Assembly (NCBI GenBank): GCA_021927905.1
Contig: BLLK01000074.1
Location: forward strand, 834,139-898,138
Direction of reading: 5' to 3'
DNA: 64,000 nt
Source: Chaetoceros tenuissimus
Lineage: Eukaryota > Bacillariophyta > Thalassiosirophyceae > Chaetocerotales > Chaetocerotaceae
Positions 8,337-29,870 of this stretch are shown here, piece after piece (position 1 is the stretch's first letter; every line of letters begins with the position of its first letter). The position numbers were made by a program, and so were the translations under genes. The notes beneath the pieces are model-generated. The model did not search any database, had not been told where the DNA came from, and worked only from the letters and a program-made list of their open reading frames with translations.

Positions 8337-9989
8337 ATGCAATTACGAAATAAGCCACTGCAGAGACGACAACAGAAAAGAATCTTTTCAAAAAAGTTGG
8401 TCACTTGTTTGATTCTGACTTCCTTTGCAATTATTTACCTCGACCTGTTGCAACCTAGTCGAAGAATTCTCTCTGAACAAAAAGTTGACTTGTCGAAATT
8501 TCAAATTGATACATTTCCATTAATTCACTCTGATGTCCCGACAGATAAAGAACTTTTGAGTAAAGTAAAAGAGATCAAAGGAGAAACTGACAATGAAGAT
8601 TTTAACGAAGAAGCTGCTCGTATCCCAATTGACCAAATGTTTTACATGAATTATGAAAAAGACATTGAAAAGAAACAAAAGATGAAAGACTGGCTTTCTT
8701 GGTTTCTACCTAATCGAGGTATTCCGTTTTATAGATTACCTTTGATGAAGGGACTTCCATATGTCTGTGATTTTGAAGATGAAGAGAAGTGTATCAGAGA
8801 ATCTGGCAAGGTCGATACTCTATTGCATCTTATGCAATCCAATGAATACAAGACGTCTGGCACTTCACTCATTTTACAAGATGACATTGAAGTTACACAC
8901 ATGCATAGACTGAGAGTTGCTGCAAATCTTGTTCCTAATGACTGGGATGTAATACGATTTGACTGTCCTATTGAAAGCGATAATCACTTGCCAAACCTCA
9001 ACAATTACGTCTTTCAAACAAATCAAGGCCGCGATATGCACCCATTCCTTGATTACTCACGTGTTATGCTCTTACGAAATGAGAAATTCGACAAGATTGC
9101 TGAAGCTATCAACGTACTGCCTAGAATGGAACTTGATGCTGCGTTATCTTTTGAAGGAATCAATAGCTACTGCGTCAATGTGGGCATAGGGCATCGATTT
9201 GAAATTAAGAAACCTCGTCCTATCATCTACACATTCTTTTCTCCACTTCATGAAAGGGATCGACATGATAATATGGTTGACTTATGGAAGAAAGAATGGG
9301 AATTGGCTGGATTCGATCCTAGAATACTCACCATTGAAGATGCCAAGAAGAATCCGTACTTTGAAACAATGAAGGCTGAAGTCGAACAGGTCTTCAAGAC
9401 GGATGTTTACAATGCTTACTGTTTCTATCGATACCTTGCTATGGCCACCGTAGGTGGTATCATGAGTGACTATGATACCATGCCTGTTTACTTTCCTATC
9501 GAGGAAGCCATGTCTGATACACTTGTCAATGATGGAAAATTTACATCGTTTGAAGCGCACGTACCAAGTCTCATATCTGCATCGAAAGAAGAATGGCAAC
9601 ATGTTGCGGAGCTCTTGACGGAGCAAATTCCAAAATCGAAATCATGGCTCAAGAGTGACATGTATCTATTGCAGGAACTAGGCCATGATCCATCTAACGA
9701 CGTGGATCTACGATTGGCTGCTCGTATTGCTCCTCGAACTCACATTCTCACTAGTATCCCATACACGAAGGGTGAGAAGCAAAAAGTGAATTGTCATTTA
9801 CTGAAAAATAGGCGCGCTATTCACATGTCTCACAGCAGTATGAGCAAATTGAAGAAATGGGGTTTGACTCCAGACTATGATAAAACAGGCTTGCATCCTA
9901 CTCAGCATAGAGCTAAGCTTGCAGAAACATTTATGAATGACTTTCGAGAGCAATGTATGGGTGTGGGGAAATTCAAAGAAATAGAATAA
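8337..9989 (+). CDS. Type II membrane glycosyltransferase with two catalytic-like domains
   Basis: Predicted to transfer sugars in the Golgi or ER lumen. I start at the ATG at 8337 (550 aa); an in-frame extension upstream to 8256 looks like AT-rich leader. A basic N-terminus and one hydrophobic segment (about residues 21-37, VTCLILTSFAIIYL) make a signal anchor. An N-terminal domain carries LILQDDIEV (about 178-186), like the acidic motif of GT25-type glycosyltransferases. A C-terminal domain carries the DXD motif in GGIMSDYDTMPV (D378/D380) preceded by FYRYLAMATVGG, as in GT32-like (Gly_transf_sug) enzymes. A fusion of two GT domains is unusual. Donor and acceptor cannot be told. It is convergent with the sulfotransferase gene 136 bp downstream. 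Confidence 0.8.
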   Translation: MQLRNKPLQRRQQKRIFSKKLVTCLILTSFAIIYLDLLQPSRRILSEQKVDLSKFQIDTFPLIHSDVPTDKELLSKVKEIKGETDNEDFNEEAARIPIDQMFYMNYEKDIEKKQKMKDWLSWFLPNRGIPFYRLPLMKGLPYVCDFEDEEKCIRESGKVDTLLHLMQSNEYKTSGTSLILQDDIEVTHMHRLRVAANLVPNDWDVIRFDCPIESDNHLPNLNNYVFQTNQGRDMHPFLDYSRVMLLRNEKFDKIAEAINVLPRMELDAALSFEGINSYCVNVGIGHRFEIKKPRPIIYTFFSPLHERDRHDNMVDLWKKEWELAGFDPRILTIEDAKKNPYFETMKAEVEQVFKTDVYNAYCFYRYLAMATVGGIMSDYDTMPVYFPIEEAMSDTLVNDGKFTSFEAHVPSLISASKEEWQHVAELLTEQIPKSKSWLKSDMYLLQELGHDPSNDVDLRLAARIAPRTHILTSIPYTKGEKQKVNCHLLKNRRAIHMSHSSMSKLKKWGLTPDYDKTGLHPTQHRAKLAETFMNDFREQCMGVGKFKEIE

Positions 9990-10125
9990 GTGTACTCGTA
10001 GATTGTTTCTTACATACTATTTTAATGAAAAGTAAAAACATGAAATGATTGATATATTCCTGAGTTTTGAGGAACGGTGTCATTTATGATTCATAGTACT
10101 ATGGAGAACTTTTGTGATGGAGTAC

Positions 10126-11180
10126 CTAGTCCATGCAGGGCAATACATAAGAAAGCTTCATAAATCCATCATCACTACAAGTTTCAAAAAGTTTTTGCTC
10201 AAAATCTCTCACATTCTTTTGACATCCAATATTCTCTTTGAAACCGAGTGTGTATTCAATCATACTCTTTTTCTTCAAAACCCATTCATCCAATGCTACA
10301 ATTCTTGTACTGTTTGATGATAACTGTACAAAATTTTGAACCTTCTTTTCTGTCGCAACATTATGATGAACTGGTTTTCTTGCTAGTAGTGCTGGACAGA
10401 ATTGTTCAGCCAACATTTTCTGCAATGAATCAATTTCATTCATATTCATAGTAACAAGATTTGGACGATTTTCATTCAATGCATGGAACATATCACATGT
10501 CCAAATGTTATGGACACCTCCAGAAATTTCAAAAAGCTTTGGTTTAATCACCTTCTTCACTAAGTCGTCTTCTTTAATTGTACATGTATGGTCAGTATCA
10601 TTTTTTGTACAAATGTAAAGTCTCGAGCAGCATTACGAGCTGGTACATTACCATCACAGAATACCTGCATGACTTGTTTGATCCCTGATGCTAGCCTACT
10701 TGTCTCGTCTCTATGAATGTACACAATTAAACTATCTTTCGACGCGCCTTTGAGTAATGATCTCATGGCATTCCCATTTAATACATGTCCAATATGTAAT
10801 TTTGGAATGTCATATGATTGTGTAAGCCATTGCTCACGAAGAGTTGGTACCTGAAATTCAAGTTGAAAATCAGCAGTATTTCCATAACAACTTCTTGCAA
10901 AATCGATCAACGATGATCCTCCGGCTTTTGGAGGCATTACAATAAAAATGTGTTCGTGATCGTCAACATTTCTTTTGAACTCATTTTTGTTCAAGCACAT
11001 TGAATTGTCATCATGTCTGGTTAGAGTAAGATTGTTCATGCTGCTAGTGCTGGTCGTGGTACCAACAAATGTGGTAGTACCACGTAGTGTTTGTCCTTTA
11101 CTTTGAGCATAGATGACGAAGACACCAAGAAGGAAAGTAATCACAAAAAAAGCTGCAGCTCTACCAAAAGATTGATCCAT
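10126..11180 (-). pseudogene. Type II sulfotransferase-like gene broken by one homopolymer frameshift
   Basis: The first frame (11180 to 10560) encodes a signal anchor (about residues 10-25) and the PAPS-binding motif PPKAGGSS (83-90), the 5'-phosphosulfate loop of sulfotransferases. It also has a 3'-phosphate motif, YIHRDETSRLASG (154-166). At a run of six T on the + strand (10601-10606) the frame is lost after Gln192. The next frame continues with plausible protein (NDTDHTCTIKEDD... onward) to a stop at 10126, giving about 350 residues in total, a normal sulfotransferase length. No splice solution restores the frame: the GT..AG candidate is 51 nt and leads to a stop. The heptamer does not fit the canonical -1 slippery rule. 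So it is either a one-base sequencing error in an intact gene or a very young pseudogene. It probably acted on Golgi glycans. Confidence 0.75.
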
Positions 11181-11316: not shown

Positions 11317-11356
11317 CTAATTTTATAGGTTTTTAGCTTTTTCTTTCCAGGACCGC
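11317..11356 (-). promoter_or_regulatory. Promoter block shared with the other sulfotransferase-like gene
   Basis: Read on the minus strand, this block runs GCGGTCCTGGA, AGA, AA, GCTAAAA, then ATAAAATTAG. It lies 137 bp upstream of the sulfotransferase ATG at 11180. The same order of words occurs at 26943-26980, 100 bp upstream of the start of the tandem sulfotransferase-like gene. Both blocks have TACG-rich sequence just upstream. Conservation in matching position and orientation suggests a core promoter or common regulator site; a transposon remnant is the alternative. Confidence 0.55.
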
Positions 11357-11476
11357 TATCGGTACGAACGTACATAGTCTATGAAAATTAGGGATTTTTA
11401 AAAAAATACAGAGTCATTTCCTAGAAGTTCCGGTAAAACGCGTTTTTTCTCGTCGTACGTACATGAAGGGTTATAT

Positions 11477-11719
11477 TCAAAAACTGTTCAGCCGGAAAAT
11501 GAAAAAAACTGGTAATTTTACTGAAATCCAGACTACAACATTATCTACGAGTACTGCTATTGTTATCAAACAAAAAATGAGCAGTGTTTTCAAAGCACTA
11601 GCAGTAGAAACAATTCTCCAATAATGAAAATCGTTCCAAATACAACAATATGAATCTGAGAAGAACCATTGGAAAATGTTTACATTTATGTCGTCTTTTG
11701 TACGTAGCATGATTCCCAT
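11477..11719 (-). pseudogene. Decayed signal-anchor first exon (relic)
   Basis: The minus-strand frame starts MGIMLRTKDDIN and resembles the start MEIMLHTKLVLS of the ORF at 22011-22325 on the other strand. Similarity continues upstream of both ATGs for about 150 bp, so these are two copies of the same promoter plus first exon. Here the frame diverges soon after the start, and no downstream catalytic domain is attached. I see it as a degenerate gene 5' end. The protein function is unknown beyond the likely membrane anchor. Confidence 0.5.
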
Positions 11720-11865
11720 ATTGTGTTGTCATTTCAATGTGTAGCACTCACTTTATGTTTCCTTTTAGAGTTCCGTGGTCAAAACGAGAAAACATCTAAT
11801 TGTATCTGCCGGCACAATCCTCAATAATTTTGTTACTTCTAATTTGAATGCCTAGCTAAATGTCA
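11695..11865 (+). repeat. Left arm, part 1, of an interrupted inverted duplication
   Basis: This matches the reverse complement of about 21875-22020. Both arms contain the words CATATTGTGTTGTCATTTCA, TGTGTAGCACTCACTTTATG and GTGGTCAAAACGAGAAAACA in the same order. The continuation of the match resumes at 15345 after the TIR element. Confidence 0.8.
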
Positions 11866-11876
11866 GCCACAGAGGT

Positions 11877-14800
11877 CGTCAGAAAAAGCGCATTATCCAA
11901 CTGCACTTTTATCATTCAATCATAACATGGAAAATATACATTGACTTGACAATAATATCATAGATAGATCATATTATTCATAATAGCTCATGTGTGCAGT
12001 GCAGATGACTTATGTTTTCATCGCGAATGACTCTTTCTTATTGAAATGACTTATATTATACTAAATGAATGAAATGAGGACAATATTACCGTGACTGACC
12101 TAAACAAAGCTAAATGATACTTTTCTGCGATCCCATTATGCGTTTTTAGCCAAACTCGTATTTGTCGAGCGTTGAATGAAGAATCATCTTGACATCATCA
12201 ACCGCACAACACTTTTATTTCACATCTTTTCCTTCACAACGTTTCACCTACAGCAAGAAATAATTGCAAATTTGAGTACCCAATATATATATATCAACGT
12301 ATATGCACCTAATTGATCCTTGGGCGAGTGAGAGTTTTGGAGATTTACTTTTATCGATGAGCTAGACGATAGATTACAGGACTTGACGAGCGAAAACCGT
12401 TCTCGACCATATATTTTTAATTTCAGCTTAGTTCAAATATAAATTTGCTGGTATATAATAATTGGAACATATGTAGCCTAGTTAAAGAGTGAAAATCCAT
12501 CTTCTTCACTTTTATCTTCCTTCAGAAGTAAGCTAATGATAGTTTTTATAAAACTGTATTTAGGGGAGAGTAATAAATATGTAGAAAGTTCTGGAAAATA
12601 TAAAATGATTTCAGGACAAAAGTATATGAATAATGAGATTCATATAGTATCTGCAAAGAAGAATGCCTAAATCATTTCATTAAGATTAGATGTTTGGATT
12701 TTCTGTTCGTGGGAATGAACATATTATGACATTTAGCTTTGTCTGAGTCATTTGTCACACATGCCAGTTAAAATGAGTAGGGTATGAGCCGGGACTCACG
12801 AAATGAGTAGGGTTTGAGTCTAGCTCCCGAGAAATGAAGTGTTTTCATGTTGAATGATTATTTGAGAGTGTTAGAATGCTGATAAAGGGCAATTTTTCGA
12901 TATCATAGGTATAGTCAACTCACGGTGGCTTCGGATAACGAACTGGTGCATTTTCAAGCAAGATTTGGAGTCGGATCGACCTTCAAATTTGAATATTTGA
13001 GGTCGACAGTTGAATACATAGTGCAAAAATCAACTTTTACTCAACAGAATTCGATGCTGTATAGCTCAAAACGTTGTTCTAGGTAATGAAGAAGAACGGT
13101 GTATATAGTAAGCGGACCTTTTTACATTGATATGATTTCCAAGTGACTGGTGAAAAAAATTACTCAAAGATTTGAACCACCTCATTTCCAATCGATGTGC
13201 AAACTTTTGGGACCTGTCTTGATGTAATTACGGATCACGAGTATAAACCATCTTCGCTCAATACTTTGAATTAAAACATTCAAGTTTTACTTCTCTTCCA
13301 GAGTCCATGGTACTTGAGTAAATCTAAATAATGTAGTCAATTTCCTTGCTCAAAAATTAAATATGCATGCAATTTAAGTATAATCTAAATACACAGCCGT
13401 GCATGGCTAATTAGTAATCGCTTTTACTGTATAAATAATGAAGATCTCAAGCTTGGGAAACATCTCAAGCTTATCTTTATAGAGTATGGCAGTAAAACGT
13501 TATTTCAAGTTTATTTTTACGATATTTCAACATTGTTTTTTCGTATGGTTTCTTCTGTAGTGGCCTCAGAAGCTCCAAAACTTCGTCATAGTATCTATTT
13601 GTAATGGTGGTTTGGAATTTTTACGAATTATAGCTCCATCTATTCGAATAATAAAAATACAAGTACCGATAGCCTATTTTGGCTAAATTTCAAACTCAAA
13701 TCAAAAGAAAGAATAGCTTGAGAAAAGTTTGTAGACGTTCTCAAAATGATATAGGTAGGATATAAAAGGCTTAACATATGTATGGGTTAGGAGTATAAAT
13801 GCTCAAAAAACTTCAACTGTCCAAAATGCTCCGCTTGAGTACAATATTACCTCGACAAATATGCGAGGTACGTTATCTTTAACTCAGCGACTCTTAAAGT
13901 TATGAATACGCCTCCTCCACTTTACTTCTCTCGTTAAAAATCAACTTTAATGGTTCTTAGGTAGATGTTATGCTGTCCTATAATCGATTTTTGGCTCGAT
14001 ACAAGTTTGGAGGAGCGAAAGAAAGGATTTAAGTATAAATACCAATGACGGTCGAGTCATATGTGAAATACATAAGTATCAATAAAATGAAACTTATGAC
14101 GAATTAGAAGATATATAACATAATATTAATAAAAAGCTATACTTGTATGAATGTACTTTTCGATGCTGAACTACTTGTTTCTATTATATTATTTTTCTAA
14201 TATGTGAGTATAAATTTAACAGGTATTCAGACGTTGCGAATACGTCATACTACGAAGACATATACGTACACAAGATTTGAATTAGTGTCAACACGGAGAA
14301 ACGGTCATTCTGATTCAAAAAAGCGCAGCGAGCAGAAGCAGCAGCACAGCAAACGACACATAAATCAAATCATTCAACACACCTCCACTTCACAGCATGA
14401 TATGATCAAAAGCAATACACGCTAATACATAAGAGATACAGAAATGTATTTTCATTATGTATAGAAAAGAAGGACGAGGATAGCTACTGTTGCATCTAGT
14501 TTCTTGGTGAGTAACAGTGACGATGGAAGATTTGTTTCTTGTCTCTTGTTCTTCTTTTCCCTCATCCTCCTCTTTTGTTCTAGTACTTGCCCACTTTGTG
14601 CTATCGATATACACGTTCTTTCCTTTGTGTATAGAATCATTCTACGGCAAAGATGGAATTACTCCACAGATGAATCAAAGAATAAGGTGAGTTCAACGAT
14701 TATGAACACGACATCTCCTTTCTTTCACTCATCAACATCGACTAACACTTTTCATATATCAGTAGCTAGTGTAATGCTATGTGACTATCAATACTAGGCA

Positions 14801-15342
14801 GCAGCAAAGGAAAAAAATTTCCGGAAATGGCAAAAAAGACTCGATGGCACATATCTTTTAGTTTTGTTTCATATACGATCATCTTCAAGGCGGCTGGTTG
14901 GTACTTAACTGGAACGAATGAATGAGGGCAATGTATTGCTTTGAATAGGATCTCTAAGTTTGGAAAATCAAATAAGTGTTGAGAACCAGCCTAAATGTTT
15001 TACATAGAATAATATTGATAAGAACAAATGCATCTATTTTCAAAAGCTTTGAATGATATATAATGAAATTCGACGACTCATTTCTACATTAGATTACATT
15101 TTATGAGACATTTCCTTTGATTATCATAGTCAAGTCTTTTACTTGTATGAGTTGTTTTGGATTGAAAATATGAGTCAATTTCAAAACTGAAATGATTCAA
15201 TTTTTGTCGCATTTGAGCCAATTGCGATGATTGATCTGGCGCCAAAAGTGCACTTTGTAGATGATGATATGAGTCAATATTTAGCTGATATGAGTCAATA
15301 CTGTTGAAATGATTGCATATGGATAATGTGCTTTTTCTGACG
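11877..15342. mobile_element. 3.47-kb non-autonomous DNA transposon with 22-bp terminal inverted repeats
   Basis: The left end (11877-11898) begins CGTCAGAAAAAG and ends CATTATCC. The right end (15321-15342) is its reverse complement with one mismatch. The flanks are contiguous in a second, uninterrupted copy of the region (reverse complement of 21600-22020), so this is an insertion relative to that empty-site-like copy. No transposase-like ORF lies inside; the ORFs at 14204-14425 and 14504-14797 have no recognisable features. Subterminal TGAGTCAA / TGACTCAT-like words recur near the right end. I could not define a target site duplication, so the superfamily is unknown. Confidence 0.7.
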
Positions 15343-15344
15343 GT

Positions 15345-15625
15345 TTCTAAAACTGTTGCTATTTGAGAACTGATATTTTCCCTTTTCTCATTTCCATGTC
15401 TTTCAAATATATAGTGCAGGTTTTACACTAAACGAAGCTTCAGGAAAATTTGGTATTGATGTTTTGCTTTTTCATACTCCGCTGAGATGATTCTTAACAA
15501 AGCAGCCAAACACTATCAATTATCGTTCTCGTTTAGGAGGCTATCTTGTGTTCTGTTTGTTTCTTCTAGCACCGATTTTGATCTCATTAGTTTCATAAGT
15601 CTCATCAATTTAACACAACATAAAA
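15345..15625 (+). repeat. Left arm, part 2, of the interrupted inverted duplication
   Basis: This matches the reverse complement of about 21597-21852. Shared words in order include TTGCTATTTGAGAACTGATA, CACTATC, CGTTCTCGTTTAG, CTATCTTGTGTTCTG, and CACCGATTTTGATCTCATT followed by TTTCATAAGTCTCATCA. The arms are clearly diverged, so the duplication is not recent. Confidence 0.8.
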
Positions 15626-15915
15626 CTCGTACGTTAGCAGCTCCCTTATCATTTATTTTTTCATGATTGAATTGTGCAAAGAGGCAGACAGCCACTCCTC
15701 TATCCCAGCATTCTTCTTGAGAACTCTACACTTGAACTCCGATAGAACAATTCGGATACACCACCACACTCCCTTATGTATGTAGTGATCATTGTGTTTC
15801 TTGTTTTAAACAAAGAAGCTTGCATCAAGTTATGAAAAGAATAGGACCTTCTTTGACAAAAAGCAACAACAAGTTTTTTAGCACACAAAAAAGTTGTTTG
15901 ATGTACAAAAAAAGA
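15626..15915. other. Spacer with no feature seen
   Basis: AT-rich, with no gene or repeat recognised. It ends in an A-rich stretch whose last eight bases (15908-15915) form one copy of the presumed target site duplication of the transposon pair. Confidence 0.4.
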
Positions 15916-15966
15916 GGCAACCGGCCTGCTGGTGTGGACCCTTTTAAAAATATGTAAATAATGTCA

Positions 15967-16014
15967 AAATAGCTATTAAAAAGCTTGTAGACACCTGCTT
16001 TTTAATAGCTATTT
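15967..16014. repeat. Perfect 18-bp subterminal hairpin of transposon copy 1
   Basis: AAATAGCTATTAAAAAGC (15967-15984) pairs perfectly with its complement at 15997-16014 across a 12-base loop. The same structure occurs in copy 2 at 18376-18423. It may be a transposase-binding or structural site near the left end. Confidence 0.8.
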
Positions 16015-16167
16015 CAGTGTTATTTTAATTCAACGTGTAGGTACTAATATAGTATGTACTAAAAGGTGCTGCACCTTGAGCCACGACGAGATGAACACTG
16101 AACTTGACTGAACCTAATTAACACCTGATACCTTTAGTGCATTTCACTTGTCTTTATTTACTATAAC

Positions 16168-16584
16168 ATGGCAAAATCCAAACGTAAATATGTTTCTAAA
16201 ACCCTAAACTCAAACAAGGGCAAAACTACGTCAGCAGCAAAGGCAGCAAAAACCTATAAGAAAGCGACTGAGACAAGAGTACTTGCTAGAGGTCTAGCTA
16301 ATTTTGTTCAGCATGGAACCATTAGGAATATTATTGAATCACCTCGAGTGATGATAGAGAGAATGTGGAATGAGTTCCGTAGACGTGATGCAAACTATGA
16401 AGTCCGTAGACCAACTCATACAAATAATGATGACTACTACGATGTGAAAGAAAGCACTAGAACTGAAGACGAATTAAATCAAGATGATGGTGATGACGAT
16501 GGTGATGGCTCTTCTTTTGAAGAAGATTCAAGCTACTTCAATGATATCAAAATTAGTGTCATAGAATCTTTCGAACTTTCCTAA
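16168..16584 (+). pseudogene. N-terminal fragment of transposase-like protein (copy 1)
   Basis: This frame encodes a Lys-rich start (MAKSKRKYVSKTLNSNKG), a helix-forming stretch and an Asp-rich run, 138 aa in all. It is identical to copy 2 except for one residue up to residue ~131. The deletion junction near 16561 then adds a short out-of-frame tail and a stop. The cysteine-rich domain kept in copy 2 is missing here, so this fragment cannot be a working transposase. Confidence 0.75.
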
Positions 16585-17551
16585 GATTGGACATTATAAT
16601 ACATGGATGATAGATGCCCATGTTAAGGTGTATGAACGGAATCATAATGAGCTTTTGTATCCAACGTGGATTTGTGCTTCTGACTTTGCACCTACAGAAG
16701 AAAAGTTTGGTTTCGTATCACTCGTTGGTAAAGAACTAGAAAAAGAAATAAATGACACTGTCAAGGTTAGAGATGATAAAATGACACCTACGGCAAAATA
16801 CTTATCTAAAGCATGTGGAATGGTAGTACACCCAAGACCATGGTCGACAGAGTACGAATGTAAGTGCTTGTATCAAAAGTTGTTTACCGAAGCAACCAAG
16901 ATTCATAAGAACATGGACAAAGTTGATGAGCTAATGACTCGGCTTATTTTAAAACATGTCGATGGCGTGAAGGTCTTTCCCAAGACTAAAGCGTACAATC
17001 GCATCTATCGCAAGCGTCGTAAACATTATGAAACATTGCAAAAAGCTTCAAGATTGATGGCTAGGGACGAGACGCTCTTACATTCGGTTAATATACTTAC
17101 TGCTCATCAAAAACAAGGATATGAAAAGCCAACAGCAGAAGCGTCTTCTGATGTAGACATGAATACAGAGGATGTTAATGCCGAAGAATCTACTCTGGAT
17201 AAGTTTGTTACGGATAACTTTGGAACGATCCAGAAACAGGATGCACCTAAAGAGCAACAGACAATGAAAAGAGTAAATCATCTCAATTTTGTTCATCCAG
17301 CATTTCCGCAATTTGCTGGTTTATATCAAGTGAATATGATTCAAGCAGCGAATCATATTTCATATCAAGCACCTCGGCATGAAAGAAATTTGGTGCTACC
17401 AGTACGTGGACCAGATAAGATTTGTGTTCGTCAAGAAAGGAAATGTAAGAATTGTAAGAAAGGTAAATCGGATGGATGTAGAGGCGGTTCTACAAGAAGA
17501 CCGAGAAACCAACCACAGCGGTATTGTGACACTCACCAGTGCTATTTTTAA
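16565..17551 (+). pseudogene. C-terminal part of transposase-like protein (copy 1)
   Basis: The open frame follows the deletion junction at about 16561; its first ATG is at 16607. The part up to about 16911 (containing NELLYPTWICASDFAP and EKFGFVSLVGKEL) is absent from copy 2. From 16912 on it is shared: a basic region with many Tyr/Arg residues, then a C-terminal cysteine cluster CKNCKKGKSDGC ... YCDTHQC that should bind zinc. It is out of frame with the N-terminal fragment. The cysteine-tailed architecture resembles transposases carrying the DUF6729-type domain, which is an inference from memory of the family. Confidence 0.65.
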
Positions 17552-18318: not shown

Positions 18319-18375
18319 TTTCTTGGCAACCGGCCTGCTGGTGTGGACCCTTTTAAAAATATGTAAATAATGTCA

Positions 18376-20884: not shown

Positions 20885-21266
20885 TGTCATACAATGTCAA
20901 ACATCTACAAATTTAGCCTTTTCGTGAATAAACGATTTTTCGCGAAAAAATGTTAAAAACTAATGTGCCGTATAACTCTTCAGATATGGCTTTTTCAAAC
21001 AAATCAGCCAGGATCCTTGTAGAACTAGTATAATTATACAAGGAAATCATGCGTTACTGCGATAGGCTTTTGGGGAAAAGTATCCTATCGCAGTAACGCA
21101 TGATTTCCATGTATTATTATACCAGGTCTATAGGAATCCTGGCCTATTTGTTTGGAAAAGCCATATTTGAAGAGTTATACGGCACATTGGTTTTCAAATT
21201 TTAACGCGTTAAATTATTTTAACGCGTTAAAGGCTAAATTTGTAGATGTTTGACATTGTATGACAA
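20885..21266. mobile_element. Foldback/MITE-like palindromic element, about 382 bp
   Basis: Nearly the whole element is one inverted repeat. The outer arm TTGTCATACAATGTCAAACA (from 20885) pairs with the complement ending at 21266. The middle of the arms (GTATAACTCTTCA / TGAAGAGTTATAC) also pairs. At the centre a perfect 25-bp stem (21042-21066 with 21084-21108) closes on a 17-base loop that can itself pair CTTTT with AAAAG. The right arm carries an extra pair of palindromes TTAACGCGTTAA (21201-21212 and 21219-21230). It codes for nothing. A transcript would fold into a long hairpin. Confidence 0.8.
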
Positions 21267-21596
21267 ATCATCCGAGCACCCTGTCTTTTGCCGGATGCAC
21301 ACAAAAACAACAGCTGCACAAGAAGAACTGTGTTGGACATGACAAAACAAATTGCTTTGAAAAGGTACTTTCACTTTTTCTTCTTAATCATAATCTGCTA
21401 GATGCAAGTTTCATTGTATAATAAAACAAAAATTCTAACAGAAGGGAATGTTGTGGTGTGTCCGAATTTTGTCAGAGTTCAAGCATAGAGTTTACGAGGA
21501 AGACTGATGCTGCCTGAGCGCCAACAGATTTCTTCTGTCTATCCTTGGCCTAATTGAATTACGAAAAAACAAATGACTATATAGTAAAGAGATGAT
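21267..21596. other. Spacer with no feature seen
   Basis: About 330 bp, AT-rich, between the foldback element and the right arm of the inverted duplication. No ORF or repeat is recognised. Confidence 0.4.
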
Positions 21597-22020
21597 TACA
21601 TGTATTGGGTTGTGTTTACACAGTCGAAATGATGAGACTTATGAAATGAATGAGATCAAAATCGGTGCAAGCAAGAAGAAACAACAGAACACAAGATAGC
21701 TAAACGAGAACGATAGTGTTTGCTGCAAGAATCGCCTTAGCAGAATACGAAAAAAAACACTCTTGTAATATTTTTTTGAAGAGCCTTATAGTTGAGAGAT
21801 ATGTAAATGGGAAAAGGGAAAATATCAGTTCTCAAATAGCAACAATTTTTTGCTTAGAAAAGATATCAGCAGGCAGACCTTCAGTTTAGAAGTAACAGAG
21901 AAGTAATGAGGATTATGCCAGCGGATACAATTAGATGTTTTCTCGTTTTGACCACGGAGCACTAAAAGGAAACATAAAGTGAGTGCTACACATTGAAATG
22001 ACAACACAATATGGAAATCA
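21597..22020 (-). repeat. Right arm of the inverted duplication (uninterrupted copy)
   Basis: Its reverse complement matches 11695-11865 followed directly by 15345-15625. It thus shows what the left arm looked like before the 3.47-kb element entered. It ends at the start of the signal-anchor ORF at 22011, so the arm includes that ORF's promoter. Confidence 0.8.
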
Positions 22021-22325
22021 TGCTACATACAAAGTTGGTACTTTCGTCGCACATAAATGCCAGATCTCATCTAGGAAATGGTCATCAAAGTCATCTTCTC
22101 AATCGCATCTTCCATCTCTCAGTAATAACAGCAATTGGCGTTCTCTTTTCCTGTATTTTGCTTTTCAAAGACTTGAATCAACCTTCTCCTTCTCTACCTT
22201 CTCCTTCTAGTACTACTACTAGCACTCCTCCTCTATCCCTGACCTCTAACAACGCTCCAAAATCGCATATAGCTAAACATTTGAAAATGAGAGTGAAAAC
22301 GGTACTATGTACTATCTACCAGTAA
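22011..22325 (+). pseudogene. Signal-anchor first exon of a type II membrane protein, truncated
   Basis: 104 aa: a polar N-terminus, one hydrophobic segment (VITAIGVLFSCILLF, about residues 38-52) and a Ser/Thr/Pro-rich stem. This is the layout of the first part of Golgi glycosyl- or sulfotransferases. No catalytic domain follows, and the next gene lies on the other strand 109 bp away. A GT near 22301 could once have been a splice donor. The ATG context and upstream DNA match the decayed copy at 11719. Likely a gene remnant; a small membrane protein is possible. Confidence 0.45.
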
Positions 22326-22433: not shown

Positions 22434-25400
22434 TCATTGCGCCATTAACTTGATAATCATCTCCACTGTGCCATTTCGAGGTAATTTATTGACATCGATA
22501 AGAAAATCATTGTCTCCATCATCGTCATATTCAAAAGTACCATTCAGAGCTATAGGAACCGTATTTTGAATGGCAGGAAATTTCATCGCACTTGCAGTGT
22601 GTATGGCATAACTGGAACCTAACGACGGAAACAAGCAAAACGTCGACGGAGAACAGAAGCTCACATTGGAAAATACAATATGGTGCATGCTCCACAAGGT
22701 TGATTCGTTATCATATATCTTGAAAAAATCTTTTGGCCGATTCATCAATGTTGACAATCTAGTGATAAGTGCATCAAGGACCCGTTTGCACGATTGCCCA
22801 TGCTTGCAGTCTAGCTCTCGCTGAAGAATATTGTTGCTACAGCTGCTAAGAGGTGTTGTTACGATATGTACAGCTGTGATATTGCGTCCTTTCAGATGTT
22901 TATAATAGAAAGATGGTTTGAGAAAACCCATGCCCAAAGTATAGCCTCGTGCGATGACATCAGTGTCCAATATGTCACCGCATCGAAAGTGAATGGTAGC
23001 CACACCTTCTTCAATGGTGGTACCAGTAGTCCTTGTTGTTGTTGTCTGATTGGCAGACGACGACAACAATGGTCCTCGTAGTGATGATGACGATGACGAT
23101 GCCCAGTTCTTTAGAGCACTTCGAATTTCATAATGCCATGTATTGGAAAGAATGGGCCATCCTTCTTTGCACTGGTGGGCAATAGGACCATGGCACTTGC
23201 ACATTCTCTCCAGTGTTGTGGTAACGTTGGATGTTGTGACAAAACTATCATACTGAACATTGTTATTGTTCTTGTCAACAAAGACATTTTGAGGCAGCCA
23301 TGCAATCAAATTGTCAAACTGATCTTCTTTCGAACAAGGTGGGTATATGTGAAACTGAATGCCATGAAGTGCTGCGAATGTTCTGGCCTGAAAGTACAAC
23401 CCAAGCTTGTTACCAATCGATCCAGATTGACACATCCAGTCGGAATTATTGAAGAGAACTCCTGCAATCTCATTTCGTTTGTCCGGTAGTTGTTGATCCC
23501 AGGAAGAGCATATAGAAGGCACACCGCCCCAATCCGTATTGTTCCCATTACTATTGGGTGAGATGTACGTGAAATTTGGTCGAGAAAGCATTTGTTTGAT
23601 TTGTAATTGCAGCTGCTCTGCTTTTTTTATATTTTTGTCTGTCGTTGCAACTTGTATACTTTGAATTCCTTTCCTTTCTTTAGCTTCACAAAGATCTTCC
23701 ATCGAATCTCTCATCGATTTGATCGCATCAATGCTCCATGTGGCAGTCCTCCCTTGATCACAACATACACCTTGACGTATTATAGGTTGATAAGGCAGAA
23801 AATGTTTTGGTAAGTTGGAGATTGCGTCAACATCGCATGTTGACATTTCATCTAGCCCCCTTCCAAGTTTTGGACCATGAAAGTGCAAAATCTTCACCTC
23901 TGAAAAAGTGCTTGGTTCGAGCCCCCAATAAGACTTCCAGTTATACTGCATAGGTAATAGATTGAACATCTCATTTGCTTGGTCATTCATTTCCTGATAC
24001 CCATTGAGCATTTCTTGATCATTCGGAAAAGTTTCTAGACTTTTCGCATATTCAATAATTTTGGGCATTTCATAGTCAAGTCGCTCCACATTCATCACCA
24101 TCACTCCTGCATTGAATATTTGTGCAGATTTGCTATATTCTCTACCATAGGAAGCAATGCTTTGCCCGACCGATTTCGAAAGTAGCTCAATATCTCGCAT
24201 AGTAATATCATTTGCAAAGATGACATCAACGTCAGTGTAAAGTACATGATCCTTGCACACATTTGGCAAGTCGAGCAAACCATGTTCTTTGATCATCTTT
24301 GGAATATCCAACCTTAAAAATGTACCTTGACGTTTTGAATATTCAATAATGCCTTTCTTCATTAACCCTTGGTCAACGTCTTTTTGAAAGGAAAGTCGAG
24401 GCGAGTATACTACTTTCACACCTTTGGCTTCGGCCCATCTCCCTAACTTCTTTGGTTCTGTAGAGTTTTCATAAGGCATGCCGTATCTTCCAAGCACCAA
24501 TACAGGCTGAAGTGTATCACGTGCATTTCTCAATGCTGAGTTTAAAGCCACCGAATAATCAACAAAGTAGGAATGTCTCTTGCTATTAGCAATTGATGAT
24601 TCACTACATTCCTCTTTTGATTCATGCATGGCTGCAAACCAAAGCATCTTACATGATCCTTGTTCAGCAGCAGCTTCAGTGCTCTTGTCAAGTAATAGAA
24701 GATCTTCCTTTTTATGTTTCATACAATTGGTAATGTTGCAATATGAGTTGAGTTTTGAATGCGTAGCATTGTTTGCATTTGGATGGCAGAAACTTGTAGG
24801 GGAAGGTAATTTACTGAATGTAGGGAAAACAGAGTTGGTAGCATATGTATGGTTTAGGCTTGTTCCTTGTGTCGTACCTCCACTCATTTCCACCTTTCCT
24901 TCAGATCTTTTGCTAATTGTAGTATTGGTATTAATTGGAGTATCTTTAGTACCAACTTTGATACCTTTCTTTGGAATCGCAGCGGCATATGTAGTCATGT
25001 TTGTAGTAGCTATAACAGGGGCAGTAGAAGCTGTGCTAATATGGCCTCTAACATCACAAAAATCTTCCATCGAATCTCTCATCGATTTGATCGCATCAAT
25101 GCTCCATGTGGCAGTCCTCCCTTGATCACAACATACACCTTGATTTACCAAATGTTGATAAGGTTTTGATATAGAGCTTGCATCAACATCGCATGTTGAC
25201 ATTTCATCTAGCCCCCTTCCAAGTTTTGGACCATGAAAGTGCAAAATCTTCACCTCTGAAAAAGTGCTTGGTTCGAGCCCCCAATAAGACTTCCAGTTAT
25301 ACTGCATAGGTAATAGATTGAACATCTCATTTGCTTGGTCATTCATTTCCTGATACCCATTGAGCATTTCTTGATCATGGCTTGGGTACGAATCTAGACT

Positions 25401-26771
25401 TTTCGCATATTCAATAATTTTGGGCATTTCATAGTCAAGTCGCTCCACATTCATCACCATCACTCCTGCATTGAATATTTGTGCAGATTTGCTATATTCT
25501 CTACCATAGGAAGCAATGCTTTGCCCGACCGATTTCGAAAGTAGCTCAATATCTCGCATAGTAATATCATTTGCAAAGATGACATCAACGTCAGTGTAAA
25601 GTACATGATCCTTGCACACATTTGGCAAGTCGAGCAAACCATGTTCTTTGATCATCTTTGGAATATCCAACCTTAAAAATGTACCTTGACGTTTTGAATA
25701 TTCAATAATGCCTTTCTTCATTAACCCTTGGTCAACGTCTTTTTGAAAGGAAAGTCGAGGCGAGTATACTACTTTCACACCTTTGGCTTCGGCCCATCTC
25801 CCTAACTTCTTTGGTTCTGTAGAGTTTTCATAAGGCATGCCGTATCTTCCAAGCACCAATACAGGCTGAAGTGTATCACGTGCATTTCTCAATGCTGAGT
25901 TTAAGGCGACTGAATAATCAACAAAGTAGGAATGTCTCTTGCTTTTAGCAATCGATGATTCACTACATTCCTCTTTTGATTCATGCATGGCTGCAAACCA
26001 AAGCATCTTACATGATCCTTGTTCAGCAGCTTCGCTGCTCTTGTCAAGTAATAGAAGATCCTCCTTTTTATGTTGCATACAATTGGTAACATTGCAATAT
26101 GAGTTGAGTTTTGAATTCGTAGCATTGTTCGAATTTGGATGGCAGAAACTTGTAGGGGAAGGTAATTTACTGAATGTAGGCAAATCGTTCTTCATTTCAA
26201 TGTTTCCGTTTGTATTATGAGGGATATTAGCAGCTGTTGGTGTCTTCTTGATAGGAATAGATTTGTCAATACTTTCATCTTTTGTTGGAAATTGCTTGGA
26301 AGTTTTTGAACCAGGCTTTGCTTCTTTTGAGATACCATGATGCGAGACATCATCTGCACTTCTCTTCATGTCGGATTGTCTGTTTTTGCTTTTCAAAAGA
26401 CTTGAGCTCTGATAATTTTTGCTTGCATGTTTATTTGCACCATATAAAATATAATTTTCCTCGTCGTGATTGGAGTCAACATGAAGGAAGACAAAGAAAG
26501 ATATACTAATGATGCCGCAAATAGTAAGCAGACAGGACTTTTTAAAATTTGACTTCCTTTTCTTCTTCTGGCTATTACTTGGCAATCCATTCTCTGTAGA
26601 ATCATTATTTCTGCTGTTCTTCTTGTAGTAGTAGTTATCATAGGAATAATAGTAGTAAAGGGGACGATAAGAACCGCCTTTCTTACTAGGAGTTCTAGCC
26701 ACCTCTTGCTCTTTAGGAAATCTTTCCTCTGGTGGGTCAGGTTTTCTTTGTTTCAAATATCCTTGCTTCAT
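22434..26771 (-). CDS. Three-domain type II glycosyltransferase with two near-identical GT8-like domains
   Basis: 1445 aa, single exon, expected in the Golgi membrane. The N-terminus has a Tyr-rich stretch (39-49), a basic patch and a signal anchor (about 80-97). Two tandem domains follow (about 205-570 and 660-1020). Each has the DXD motif in LYTDVDVIFAND (D394/D396 and D847/D849), FNAGVMVMNVERLDYE, DQEMLNGYQ, YNWKSYWG and a closing HFHGPKLG. This order resembles GT8-type glycosyltransferases. The C-terminal part (about 1090-1445) has SIGNKLGLYFQARTFAALHG and IHFRCGDIL (R1263-D1266), reminiscent of GDP-fucose-using fucosyltransferases, whose usual motif is HxRRGD. The repeats are almost identical at DNA level. 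It is divergently transcribed from the tandem sulfotransferase-like gene, with about 310 bp between starts. Confidence 0.82.
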   Translation of the reverse strand: MKQGYLKQRKPDPPEERFPKEQEVARTPSKKGGSYRPLYYYYSYDNYYYKKNSRNNDSTENGLPSNSQKKKRKSNFKKSCLLTICGIISISFFVFLHVDSNHDEENYILYGANKHASKNYQSSSLLKSKNRQSDMKRSADDVSHHGISKEAKPGSKTSKQFPTKDESIDKSIPIKKTPTAANIPHNTNGNIEMKNDLPTFSKLPSPTSFCHPNSNNATNSKLNSYCNVTNCMQHKKEDLLLLDKSSEAAEQGSCKMLWFAAMHESKEECSESSIAKSKRHSYFVDYSVALNSALRNARDTLQPVLVLGRYGMPYENSTEPKKLGRWAEAKGVKVVYSPRLSFQKDVDQGLMKKGIIEYSKRQGTFLRLDIPKMIKEHGLLDLPNVCKDHVLYTDVDVIFANDITMRDIELLSKSVGQSIASYGREYSKSAQIFNAGVMVMNVERLDYEMPKIIEYAKSLDSYPSHDQEMLNGYQEMNDQANEMFNLLPMQYNWKSYWGLEPSTFSEVKILHFHGPKLGRGLDEMSTCDVDASSISKPYQHLVNQGVCCDQGRTATWSIDAIKSMRDSMEDFCDVRGHISTASTAPVIATTNMTTYAAAIPKKGIKVGTKDTPINTNTTISKRSEGKVEMSGGTTQGTSLNHTYATNSVFPTFSKLPSPTSFCHPNANNATHSKLNSYCNITNCMKHKKEDLLLLDKSTEAAAEQGSCKMLWFAAMHESKEECSESSIANSKRHSYFVDYSVALNSALRNARDTLQPVLVLGRYGMPYENSTEPKKLGRWAEAKGVKVVYSPRLSFQKDVDQGLMKKGIIEYSKRQGTFLRLDIPKMIKEHGLLDLPNVCKDHVLYTDVDVIFANDITMRDIELLSKSVGQSIASYGREYSKSAQIFNAGVMVMNVERLDYEMPKIIEYAKSLETFPNDQEMLNGYQEMNDQANEMFNLLPMQYNWKSYWGLEPSTFSEVKILHFHGPKLGRGLDEMSTCDVDAISNLPKHFLPYQPIIRQGVCCDQGRTATWSIDAIKSMRDSMEDLCEAKERKGIQSIQVATTDKNIKKAEQLQLQIKQMLSRPNFTYISPNSNGNNTDWGGVPSICSSWDQQLPDKRNEIAGVLFNNSDWMCQSGSIGNKLGLYFQARTFAALHGIQFHIYPPCSKEDQFDNLIAWLPQNVFVDKNNNNVQYDSFVTTSNVTTTLERMCKCHGPIAHQCKEGWPILSNTWHYEIRSALKNWASSSSSSLRGPLLSSSANQTTTTRTTGTTIEEGVATIHFRCGDILDTDVIARGYTLGMGFLKPSFYYKHLKGRNITAVHIVTTPLSSCSNNILQRELDCKHGQSCKRVLDALITRLSTLMNRPKDFFKIYDNESTLWSMHHIVFSNVSFCSPSTFCLFPSLGSSYAIHTASAMKFPAIQNTVPIALNGTFEYDDDGDNDFLIDVNKLPRNGTVEMIIKLMAQ
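23689..26185 (-). repeat. Intragenic direct repeat, two copies about 1.1 kb long, period 1359 bp
   Basis: 23689-24826 and 25056-26185 match nearly base for base, in frame (453 codons apart), except at the edges and in a few codons (for example AAAEQG versus AEQG). The linker between them (about 24827-25055) is unique and Thr/Lys-rich. Confidence 0.88.
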
Positions 26772-27079
26772 TTTATTGGAGAACGAACGTTGGTCACTGA
26801 TAACAAAATGGAAAGATGCACAGTGAACTATGATGATTTAGAGCTACAAAGTTACCGCGGTGCGAAAATTATATATGTTATTTGAAAAACATATGTACGT
26901 ACGTAGGTTCGTACCAGGTATGTACGTACAAGAATTTGAAATGCGGTCCTGGATAGAGAAGGCTAAAAGCATAAAATTAGGAGTCATTGCATTACAATTT
27001 TGTGTCCTGAAGAGCTAAAAAAGCTAAAAGACCGTACGTACTAAAAAAGGAAAATCAAACAGTGAAAATCAACAACAGC
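26772..27079. promoter_or_regulatory. Bidirectional promoter between glycosyltransferase and sulfotransferase-like genes
   Basis: The two starts face away from each other over 308 bp, so both promoters must lie here. It contains the alternating TATGTACGTACGTAGGTTCG, a second GTACGTAC about 30 bp on, and the shared block at 26943-26980. Co-regulation is inferred from this layout. Confidence 0.6.
26943..26980 (+). promoter_or_regulatory. Promoter block shared with the sulfotransferase gene at 10-11 kb
   Basis: Order: GCGGTCCTGGA, AGAGAAGGCTAAAA, then ATAAAATTAG. It is 100 bp upstream of the ATG at 27080. Its counterpart is the minus-strand block at 11317-11356. Confidence 0.55.
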
Positions 27080-29870
27080 ATGAAAAAACATAAATTGGAT
27101 TTTATTTGTATTACAGATTACTATCCTATAATGCAGCATACTCGTAGTACTAATAAAAAACATTCACAAACTCAAAAATTTTCACCAAATAGAAACAGCC
27201 ACTTGCGCCCAGATCCACCGTCTACTAGGAGTCCTACTACTATGCTGAAACAAAGACGTCATACTACAACAAGAAGCAGAATGATTAAGAATACACAAAG
27301 TCAAAAGCCAGATCCTCCTGCCAACAACAATTCCTCTTGTGAGGAGGCCAGTTCTTCTTTTTCTTATAAAGCACTTGTTCCCGGGACAAAGAAAGGGTTT
27401 CGAAAAAAGAGTTCTTTCTTTGTTCATAGAGGAAAAACTCATCGCTTTCTTGTACTAGCATTTCTAGTTTTCTTTGTTCTTGCATGGCTTGCTACTACCA
27501 TGACTAGTAGCCATCGTAGAAGTAGAGAAATTACTACAGCAAACTCATCTAAGCTACGACAAAAGATTTTATTCCTGGCAGGTCCTCACAAGACTGGAAG
27601 CTCTACCATTCAGTATAACTCTTTTCTCATTTCAAAATTTACAGAAAGCTGGGCTTTTGTAGATCCATGGGCGACGAAAGACGACCAATTCAAAGTTGTG
27701 AAGTTGGGGCATGAGAAACATTTTGCTGCGCTTTTATTTGCTCTTCGTGGACAACTTAATCATCCATACTTTGTGAACACACCTGCTGAGCCGGAAAAAA
27801 TTATCAATGCCTTTCGAGAGGATATTGAAGCAAAATGGAATCAAGGCAAGAGCATCACTGTCGGTTCAGAAGAAATAGACTTTGCTGTTGCAGACTATGA
27901 AGATGAAAGTGGAATCAATGGTACCCAATTTCTTGATGGAATATTATCTACGTTACCTGCCAACACAAAACATGTTACAGAAGTCATAATTGCATATCGA
28001 TCTCCTAGAGCTAAACATTTTCTTTCGCTTTGGAAAGAGATTGGAGTTGCACAATGGAATCAAACACTGAAAGAATTTATCTTTCACCATGAATCCTATT
28101 CTCATTTTCATACAATAGACATTTTGCCACTCATCGACTTATTTGTGCAGCGAGGGTACAAAATCTTACTAGTTGATATCGGAGGGGTTCGAAAACAAAA
28201 TCTTCGAATGTTTCAACTCTTGGCTTGTCACTTGATGAATGAGCCATGCGATACAGAAACTCATATTCCACTAGAGCTAACGGAAGTATTGGCAAAGTCT
28301 ACCGATCTCCAAATGGCTCTTTATAATGATGTGAATGTTCGAACTGATGGAGTAATGGATTTGGAAAAACATCAAATTGAACAAATTGAAGAGTCTATCC
28401 TCCAATATGATTGTGGATTCAAGGATGCTGTATATGGAAATAATTTGGTTCAAATCATTTTCGATGACACCTTTACCAAAAACATGAACCAATGCAACAA
28501 CGACGGAAAAGGTATAGAACGAATAAGTAGAAAAGAGCTATGGAAGCAAATTCAAAGGATTACGGATCCTGTGCGTTATGAGAAGGAAAATCAAAGGAAG
28601 GTTCGTATGATATCACCACGTTGTTTCTTCTTTTATTTTTCATCTTTCCAATCTCATCATTTCCATAGGTTGTAATATTGGCCGGTCCTCATTTTAGTCA
28701 AATTGACGCCATGGTATGTGATCTTGCTTCTTGTGCGAATTTTAAACATCATATTATACTAATTCGAGTTTGATTTTGACGAAAGAGTACAATTTCCTTT
28801 CACTACTCTGCCATTTTACGTAATAGATGGTCCTTTGTTGCTCCAAAGAAGGTTTCTGAAGTCTTTTCTCTTACAGAACCTGCATATGGATCATCTCTAC
28901 TTTTCGCCTTGAGTGGGCAACTTAGTCATCCTCTTTTCAAAACAAAGATATCTCAATCAGCGATGTCTGACATATTTCAGCAAGAAATTGGTTTCCAATT
29001 TAGAAATGGAAGGAATTTAATATTTGGTTCTACTGAATTCGACCTCATAACGTCTAAAGATGGCAATGGGAACAACATTCTTCATGAAACAACAAGGTTG
29101 TTATCAACTTCGGGCTATGATGTTGATTCAGATCTTAAATACACAACCAATGTTGTCATTGGATATTATGCACCTAGAGTCGACCATTTGCTACTACTAT
29201 GGAATGAATTAAAGAAATCATCGACTTTCTTATCTTTTCATGATTTTTTGAAAGATGAGTCGACAATTTCAGTAAGTCATATTCATACTCACGCCTATGC
29301 TCGGATGTTCCTTTCATGTTCTCCAACCCTTTCTTTTCTTTCACAAAGCACTTGCATACAATAGATCCTTTTGCTATGGTCGAAAAGTTCCTCTCAAATG
29401 GATTCCATGTGACTTTAATAGATATTTTTGGCAAAAATAAGGCCGGGCTTGAGTCATTTCAAGTTCTTGCATGTGATATTATGCAAGAGCAATGCAATAA
29501 TGAACGAATGCCTTTATTTCTTTCTGAACATCGAAAATACCATACTGAGGTAGATGAAATGATTAGAGACACTAGTGTCGACGCTGTGTTCATGGACAAT
29601 CTACAAATACGGTCTCAAATAACAGCAACAGAGAGAATTCGTATTGAGAAAGTTTTGCAAAATTATGACTGTAACTTCAAGTCATTGCTTCATCATGACA
29701 ACTTGACTGTACTTTATGATACAACACTCTCTGCAAATATGGAAAAATGCAGCAATGTGGAAGATTCAATGGTCCCTCCCAATCGAGATATAATGTGGAA
29801 AATAATCTCTGCGTCTTCAGATGGAGATTATTCTCGTAATATGGTTTCATTGTCTTTGCTACAGCATTAG
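27080..29870 (+). CDS. Tandem two-domain type II sulfotransferase-like protein, four exons
   Basis: My model joins 27080-28600, 28669-28713, 28786-29271 and 29349-29870 (857 aa). All three introns (68, 72 and 77 bp) are phase 0 with GT..AG ends. Splicing links frames that align with each other. A long basic N-terminus precedes a signal anchor (about 123-141). Domain 1 has AGPHKTGSSTIQY (5'-phosphosulfate loop, about 167-179) and AYRSPRAKHFLSLW (3'-phosphate site, about 305-318). Domain 2 repeats the same plan (LFALSGQLSHPLF, GYYAPRVDHLLLLW, HLHTIDPF). Its loop reads AGPHFSQIDAMSTIS, with the KTGS residues lost, so it is probably non-catalytic. The start could instead be the ATG at 27131. It likely sulfates glycans, or is a PAPS-dependent enzyme of unknown acceptor. 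Confidence 0.75.

Follow-up and report, generated by a model that had tools for sequence, protein, structure and literature searches.

A candidate cluster of glycosyltransferase-like and sulfotransferase-like genes in the diatom Chaetoceros tenuissimus

Do neighbouring genes for glycan-modifying enzymes in a diatom genome belong to one pathway, or do they merely lie side by side? This question is raised by a window of 64,000 nucleotides from Chaetoceros tenuissimus, the whole stretch of DNA analysed here, in which four adjacent genes, g1 to g4, each encode a protein with an N-terminal anchor.

Layout of the locus

The genes and their parts are located as follows (positions are those of the window unless a contig is named).

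C58:830359-831597, just left of the window: GT31-like gene
8337..9989, plus strand: g1, 550 aa, open frame, N-terminal anchor; first half resembling GT25, second half resembling GT32 (DXD)
10129..11180, minus strand: g2, sulfotransferase-like, anchor, PPKAGGSS-type P-loop, HRDETSRL stretch, frame broken near 10.60 kb
22434..26771, minus strand: g3, 1445 aa, open frame, anchor, two GT8 domains and a C-terminal HxRxGD domain
About 25050-26180 and 23682-24824, minus strand: GT8 domains of g3 (PF01501)
About 22434-23519, minus strand: C-terminal domain of g3, recognised by its HxRxGD motif
27080..29870, plus strand: g4, tandem sulfotransferase-like, 857 aa, four predicted exons
27080-28600, 28669-28713, 28786-29271 and 29349-29870, plus strand: predicted exons of g4, with GT-AG introns

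The signal anchors that the initial annotation had assigned to the four large genes were recovered. The strongest hydrophobic stretch starts at residue 21, 5, 80 and 123 of g1 to g4, respectively, and its 19-residue mean is 1.95–2.52 (the scan covered the 193 residues ahead of the break in g2 and exon 1 of g4). The divergent transcription of two genes was likewise found, for g3 and g4, with 308 bp between the start codons. Apart from a copia ORF and the ORFs of a nest of repeats, no further ORF reaching 200 aa separates the GT31-like gene, g1, g2, g3 and g4, a search that genes with short exons could escape. The five thus comprise at least three adjoining non-homologous enzyme genes, one of the features by which a eukaryotic metabolic gene cluster is recognised. 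As a whole, the four-gene picture first drawn keeps its core, with no support for the two relic exons (see below) and with a broken frame for g2.

Family assignment of the encoded proteins

The profile searches proposed along with the initial annotation gave a clear answer for g3 only. Against PF01501 (GT8) this protein scored 37.8 bits (cut-off 24.3, E 2.1e-9) over two stretches, whereas the other three remained below the cut-off or unmatched. GT8 is therefore the only family in g1 to g4 that exceeds a Pfam cut-off; the labels GT25/GT32-like and sulfotransferase-like are weak assignments drawn from motifs, relatives and weak fold matches. PDB sequence searches with the proteins of the locus returned nothing convincing, the single match of g3 being a GT8 structure at E 0.14. 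The GT31-like gene matches Galactosyl_T (PF01762) with 24.2 bits at a cut-off of 23; its sequence shows a DDD motif and a stretch resembling an anchor, and a PDB sequence search up to E 1 found no relative of it.

For g1 the likeness to GT32 lies in the second half. The match to PF04488 reaches 16.3 bits (cut-off 23), the same family appears at E up to 1 in three of eight aligned members of the g1 family (best E 0.017), and the DXD aspartates D378 and D380 are invariant in all eight. The first half gave no match to PF01755 (GT25) in the Pfam scan; an N-half relative, L060, matches that family weakly (12.4 bits, cut-off 24). In contrast to GT25 and GT32 proteins, g1 is a two-domain fusion, with both matches below the cut-off. 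Relatives of the g1 family were not found in viral contigs.

In g3 the likeness to CAZy GT8 extends to the sequence motifs DVD and NAGVMVMNVERL. Unlike known GT8 enzymes, g3 joins two near-identical GT8 units (95% identity across 1154 bp, dS 0.066, dN 0.028) and an HxRxGD domain in one chain. No second copy of this architecture was found in the genome, and genome searches with the whole protein and with its C-terminal part found only themselves. The HxRxGD motif is a possible lead to GDP-fucose transferases of the GT11/GT23/GT65 type. As a family assignment this was not borne out: a Pfam search up to E 10 left the C-terminus unmatched, and it has no NCBIfam match and no PDB sequence relative. 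Relatives of the C-terminus were not found in viral contigs, prokaryote genomes or plasmids, nor were relatives of the GT8 piece in viral contigs.

Both g2 and g4 resemble membrane-bound carbohydrate sulfotransferases (PF00685, PF03567, PF13469) in their type II anchor and in their KTGSS or KAGGSS P-loop, with sulfotransferases among the fold matches; in contrast to those families, neither gives a match over a curated cut-off. The pieces of g2 have no sulfotransferase match over the cut-off in the Pfam scan, and none of five aligned g4 family members matches a sulfotransferase family at E up to 1. In the g2 family the P-loop and the second motif are conserved, and relatives with a single open frame are present in the genome (L022, L023 and L025). 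L022 gives a sub-threshold match to Sulfotransfer_1 (PF00685; 16.1 bits, cut-off 22). The two halves of g4 are 29% identical to each other (E 3e-48). The first carries AGPHKTGSST; in the second the KTG with the P-loop lysine is lost, a further difference from the membrane-bound carbohydrate sulfotransferases. The second half is probably non-catalytic.

We considered the alternative that g2 and g4 encode P-loop enzymes of another kind, such as kinase-like ones, rather than sulfotransferases, in which case the sulfation part of any proposal for this locus fails. Apart from the missing Pfam matches, this is suggested by the structure model of the first half of g4 (pLDDT 69.5), in whose fold matches the sulfotransferase 4gox (rank 13, probability 0.98) comes after GTPases and kinases. 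With the model of L022 (pLDDT 70.5), SULT1C2, Teg14 and TPST2 were among the first ten fold matches and sulfotransferases took ranks 1, 2, 7 and 10 (best E 0.014), with low TM-scores and with other proteins mixed in. No fold search with either model reaches E 0.001, the named sulfotransferases have low TM-scores (0.25–0.36 by query), and further P-loop proteins stand between them or lead the list. Against the alternative stand the L022 matches in profile and fold, the secretory anchors, and the KTGSS/KAGGSS motif with its later arginine-rich stretch, which we take to fit PAPS-binding motifs. We regard a non-sulfotransferase identity as unlikely.

The repeat nest and the shared upstream block

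Repeats make up much of the region between 11.4 and 22.1 kb. The following features lie there or next to it.

11426..22058, no strand assigned: repeat nest, built on a palindromic long-inverted-repeat element and interrupted by later insertions
11426-11829 with 15349-15874, and 21218-22058, no strand assigned: arms of the palindromic element, from repeat comparison
15916..18318, plus strand: DUF6729 repeat, internally shortened copy, with stretches 99.7-99.8% identical to the next copy
18325..20841, plus strand: second copy of the DUF6729 repeat, with a DUF6729 ORF at 18577-19458 (PF20499, E 1.4e-9)
11477..11719, minus strand: left anchor-like ORF, 80 aa, wholly inside the left arm
22011..22325, plus strand: right anchor-like ORF, 104 aa, starting in the right arm

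A palindromic copy of 2.76 kb is also found at C34:2524526-2527288, and the 16 kb around it hold no homologue of g1 to g4. The contig carrying the locus ends in a satellite array.

Two relic signal-anchor exons had been described among the genes, without coordinates. The left and right anchor-like ORFs are the possible counterparts, and this claim was not borne out: both begin in palindrome arms, with a common M-x-I-M-L-x-T-K start. For the left ORF, which lies entirely in the repeat arm, an origin as an enzyme remnant is not supported. The arm in which the right ORF starts ends near 22058, short of the anchor part, so that this ORF could still be a true relic exon; its peptide has no relative among the loci examined. 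The scan showed a third anchor-like ORF at 14523 on the plus strand.

The upstream block said to be shared by two genes is best matched by a 40-nt block ahead of g2 and g4.

11317..11356, minus strand: upstream block copy 1, 136 nt ahead of the g2 start codon
26943..26980, plus strand: upstream block copy 2, between g3 and g4, 99 nt ahead of the g4 start codon

The copies agree at 34 of 40 positions, and copy 2 is oriented to g4 as copy 1 is to g2. In a first control, 600 bp upstream of g2 including the repeat arm were compared, with lenient gaps, with 2000 random 400-bp chunks. Some random chunks scored above the observed 90 (top five 161–364, mean 53), an outcome that is either uninformative or unfavourable to the block and that may reflect copies of the repeat arm. 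In the second control the region was limited to the repeat edge and shuffles were used; here the pair reached a local score of 28 against a maximum of 22 among 300 shuffles. A search of the rest of the window and of 53 background loci (some of which overlap; 263,536 bases in total) gave no match above 18, whereas the g2/g4 pair scored 26, and the 263.5 kb of other sequence from these loci held no comparable copy. Another candidate for the shared block, the inverted repeats near 11.7 kb and 21.9 kb, was discarded; these are the arms of the palindromic element, found on contig C34 as well.

These data bear on the possibility that the locus is a region of gene birth and death, with duplicated, decaying copies that lack a joint function, g2 being a pseudogene and the block a leftover of local duplication. 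The broken g2 frame would agree with this, as would g2 relatives that are broken or truncated elsewhere (four places, three with the same in-frame stop), the near-identical GT8 copies in g3 and the dense repeats. However, the assembly combines Nanopore and Illumina data, and the g2 break sits in a homopolymer and may be an assembly error; the frames of g3 and g4 are long and open. Moreover, g1 has four close paralogues with open frames (74, 70, 72 and 68% identity), against which dN is 0.17–0.21 and dS 0.85–1.15; the low ratio points to purifying selection on g1. We consider a birth-and-death origin distinctly improbable.

Cluster or chance neighbourhood

The reading we favour, at somewhat less than even confidence, is that five adjacent host genes for Golgi-type glycan enzymes (type II membrane proteins) form a cluster that is partly under common control and serves one pathway. 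The GT31-like gene followed by g1 to g4 would have been pushed apart by the copia element and the nest of DNA repeats. The GT31-like protein, g1 and g3 would extend an exported glycan in the secretory pathway, with several transferase steps on the one g3 chain, and g2 and g4 would add sulfate from PAPS. The upstream block common to g2 and g4, together with the short divergent promoter region of g3 and g4, makes common control of part of the set probable. We infer proteins that would be catalytically active in the Golgi and contribute to a common product, and a sulfated-glycan pathway at this locus is plausible.

The main alternative is a chance neighbourhood, in which unrelated genes of large, fast-evolving diatom families lie in a repeat-rich region without a shared pathway. 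We hold this for a serious, if somewhat doubtful, possibility. Counted as a lower bound, the genome has at least 68 sulfotransferase-type and at least 54 GT-type loci. Under random placement the expected number of clusters of four genes within 21.5 kb is 0.0045 for 122 genes, 0.19 for 300 and 1.2 for 500, for a glycan-enzyme category that was chosen after the cluster had been seen. The clustering, initially called unusual, is so at 122 or 300 genes but not at 500. For five genes within 31 kb the expectation falls to 0.024 (300 genes) or 0.31 (500), which argues against chance, as does the block ahead of g2 and g4.

Pairs of GT and sulfotransferase genes outside the window occur near expectation, in favour of chance: three lie within 10 kb against 1.6 expected (p 0.24), and no pairing above chance was found at any of five distances (p 0.13–0.37). 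This test used a list of 140 hits, with two hits in the second half of g4 left out, some exon hits of one gene joined and some contig sizes set to lower bounds. None of 13 ORFs beside the g1 paralogues on the same contig matches a GT or sulfotransferase family, which also fits a chance neighbourhood; nine match no family, and divergent members could escape. Nor was a homologue of g1 to g4 found in 14 flanking stretches, 13 of them beside seven paralogue or relative loci and one being the left flank of the window. A batch Pfam scan covered 50 of 54 flanking ORFs (three overlapping ones and a carrier protein recognised by eye were left out), with 25 of 74 families listed and absence not claimed; 18 flanking ORFs near C58 loci were scanned singly.

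The initial interpretation as a glycan locus thus retains the adjacent glycan-type enzyme genes and gains the GT31-like neighbour, which together with the 40-nt block improves the case for a cluster; the relic exons are not supported, and pairs elsewhere are near chance. The cluster would resemble plant and fungal metabolic gene clusters in its adjoining non-homologous enzyme genes and possible common control, and would differ in consisting of Golgi-type glycan enzymes. In two papers on C. tenuissimus, the words "sulfotransferase" and "glycosyl" do not appear (main text, transcriptome paper), nor do "sulfotransferase" and "glycosyltransferase" (genome paper). A small, defined set of neighbouring glycosyltransferase-like and sulfotransferase-like genes with a common upstream block offers concrete candidates for sulfated-glycan synthesis.

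What the product could be is suggested by published work. There, a fucose-containing sulphated polysaccharide was confirmed in all eight diatom species analysed, Chaetoceros included, and for this secreted polysaccharide a role in particle formation and carbon sequestration is proposed (PMC7896085). A second study reports no GT23 and on average three GT10 per diatom genome, and cautions that the antibodies used in reports of fucan in diatoms may cross-react (PMC11468063). In brown algae, the same study names glycosyltransferases and sulfotransferases as candidates for sulfated-polysaccharide synthesis, as here; in contrast to diatoms, the candidate fucan synthase there is a GT23 (PMC11468063). 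It is conceivable, although we think it very unlikely, that the locus is a clustered, partly co-regulated gene set for an exported polysaccharide that is sulfated and may contain fucose, with single-copy g3 containing a fucosyltransferase that the standard families miss. If true, this enzyme would explain such diatom polymers despite the reported lack of GT23 and scarcity of GT10.

Genes of the cluster and their family assignments

The four neighbouring anchor-bearing genes are arranged as follows (positions without contig prefix refer to the window):

8337-9989, plus strand: gene 1, 550 aa
10129-11180, minus strand: gene 2, P-loop of the PPKAGGSS kind followed by an HRDETSRL stretch
22434-26771, minus strand: gene 3, two GT8 stretches over the cut-off and a C-terminal domain with HFRCGD
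27080-29870, plus strand: gene 4, 857 aa, four predicted exons

The second half of gene 1 scored 16.3 bits against Pfam PF04488, under the cut-off of 23, and no Pfam family matched the first half. The DXD motif of the second half is invariant in all eight aligned sequences, and a relative, L060, weakly matches GT25. Gene 1 has four close paralogues with 68-74% identity, three of them on its own contig C58. Between gene 1 and these paralogues dN is 0.17-0.21 and dS 0.85-1.15; gene 1 is under purifying selection. Two of the paralogues (L010 and L012, C58:642042-645994) form a divergent pair separated by about 0.8 kb.

In this assembly the frame of gene 2 is interrupted within a homopolymer, so that the gene may have become a pseudogene or the break may stem from the assembly. 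Relatives with a single open frame are present in the genome (L022, L023, and L025). At four further places, L026 and L028 on contig C21, L027 on C34, and L029 on C24, a gene 2-like gene is broken or truncated, three of these copies sharing one in-frame stop, a pattern that suggests spread through segmental or mobile duplication. The two halves of gene 4 are 29% identical to each other (E 3e-48), and the KTG of the P-loop is lost in the second half. L022 matched Sulfotransfer_1 under the cut-off, and no sulfotransferase model was matched by gene 4 or by four of its relatives (0/5).

Structure models were made of L022 (seven alignment rows, pLDDT 70.5) and of the first half of gene 4 (pLDDT 69.5). 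The first ten PDB fold matches of L022 included SULT1C2, Teg14, and TPST2, with a best E of 0.014, low TM-scores, and unrelated proteins intermixed. For gene 4, P-loop GTPases and kinases came on top and a sulfotransferase followed at rank 13 with a probability of 0.98. Neither search gave a fold match at E 0.001 or better. The sulfotransferase identity of genes 2 and 4 is not provable from sequence alone; judged by their motifs, which we take to be PAPS motifs, and by the models, we read both as P-loop proteins, probably of the sulfotransferase type.

The two GT8 units of gene 3 are 95% identical across 1154 bp, and no paralogue of gene 3 was found in the genome. The HxRxGD motif of its C-terminal domain may be fucose-linked; family and sequence searches gave no support for this link, and a fucose role of the domain is a lead only. 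The lead is of interest because fucose-containing sulphated polysaccharide was found in all eight diatom species analysed in one study (PMC7896085). In another study (PMC11468063), diatoms are described as having no GT23 and on average three GT10 genes per genome, with a warning that the antibodies used possibly cross-react with other glycans.

The strongest hydrophobic stretch is N-terminal in all four genes, starting at residues 21, 5, 80, and 123 of genes 1 to 4, respectively; the scan covered the residues before the break in gene 2 and exon 1 of gene 4. The initial annotation had assigned an anchor and glycan-enzyme motifs to all four. The anchor-like N-termini were recovered throughout, whereas family matches over the cut-off were obtained for the GT8 stretches of gene 3 and not for genes 1, 2, and 4.

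The repeat nest between genes 2 and 3

The region from 11.43 to 22.06 kb consists mostly of repeats and contains the following elements:

11719, minus strand: left anchor-like ORF, starting in a repeat arm and lying entirely within it
15916-20841: two tandem copies of a DUF6729-ORF repeat, about 99.7% identical, one internally shortened
22011, plus strand: right anchor-like ORF, starting inside an arm, with its anchor portion past the arm end

At 11.7 and 21.9 kb the arms of a palindromic element form inverted blocks. A 2.76-kb palindromic copy of the arm element lies at C34:2524526-2527288 (L057, L058) with 71% identity between its arms, and homologues of genes 1 to 4 were absent from the 16 kb fetched around it. 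The DUF6729 repeat copies have inverted ends, GGCAACCG...CGGTTGCC.

Two relic signal-anchor exons had been proposed among the genes, and the two anchor-like ORFs, which begin alike (M-x-I-M-L-x-T-K), are the likeliest candidates for them. The left one lies wholly in its repeat arm and is not supported as a relic. The anchor of the right one is outside the arm, so that this ORF may be a relic, but it had no relative among the fetched loci.

Five adjoining genes and a shared upstream block

Two further elements lie to the left of gene 1:

C58:830359-831597, left of the window: GT31-like gene, Galactosyl_T 24.2 bits (cut-off 23)
72-5270: copia-type ORF, named by eye

An anchor-like stretch is visible in the sequence of the GT31-like gene, and an amino-acid permease gene lies beyond it, away from the window. 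Between the copia-type ORF and gene 1 the longest ORF is at most 102 aa. With repeats disregarded, five glycan-type genes adjoin. To the right follow ankyrin, cyclophilin, and ion-channel genes. An adjacent pair of ion-channel-like ORFs with EF-hand-like sequence lies at 38175-40463, the first being a Pfam match and the second assigned by eye. The window spans C58:834139-898138, and its right edge is the end of the contig. A strongly GC-skewed satellite array, some 43 copies of a 239-bp tandem unit, fills its final 10.5 kb (53457-64000) up to the contig end.

The upstream block said to be common to two genes was confirmed: 40 nt, 34 of them identical, precede genes 2 and 4 in the same orientation relative to the gene, 136 and 99 nt from the respective start codon. 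The local score was 28 against a maximum of 22 among 300 shuffles. A comparison with the remainder of the window and with 53 background loci, some of which overlap and which total 263,536 bases, gave 26 for the pair and 18 for the next best match. When the repeat arm was included in a first control, some random chunks outscored the observed pair.

Chance or cluster

In the assembly (41.03 Mb, 68 contigs), family and protein searches counted at least 68 sulfotransferase-type and at least 54 GT-type loci, including the four in the window. Under random placement, the expected number of clusters of four genes in 21.5 kb is 0.0045, 0.19, or 1.2 for 122, 300, or 500 genes, and of five genes in 31 kb 0.0007, 0.024, or 0.31 for 140, 300, or 500 genes; these figures take no account of the gene category having been picked after the cluster was seen.

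Outside the window, three GT-sulfotransferase pairs within 10 kb were observed against 1.6 expected (p 0.24), with no departure from chance at any tested distance (p 0.13-0.37), so that GT and sulfotransferase genes do not generally pair up in this genome. Homologues of genes 1 to 4 were absent (tblastn, E <=0.1) from all 14 flanking stretches fetched, one of them the left flank of the window and the other 13 adjoining seven paralogue or relative loci. Of 13 ORFs of at least 200 aa beside the gene 1 paralogues on C58, none matched a GT or sulfotransferase family (E <=0.001) and nine matched no family, the scan leaving out one flanking ORF, a carrier protein by eye.

Of the glycosyl- and sulfotransferase locus in the initial annotation, the four neighbouring genes hold, with the GT31-like gene as a fifth; GT-sulfotransferase pairing is near chance elsewhere. 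The cluster is real and somewhat unusual, and a pathway behind it is plausible. Most likely, a Golgi-type enzyme set would build and sulfate an exported glycan, its genes at this locus being partly under common control; the part of this reading that we observe is the anatomy. No such diatom gene cluster was described in the titles and abstract openings of the literature searched, subscription papers being mostly outside its coverage.

Among the counted pairs, L059 (C38:1523300-1525800) resembles genes 3 and 4 in layout: a Sulfotransfer_2 gene faces a GT25-like gene head to head, with some 0.6 kb between them. By eye, each of the two has an anchor-like N-terminus.
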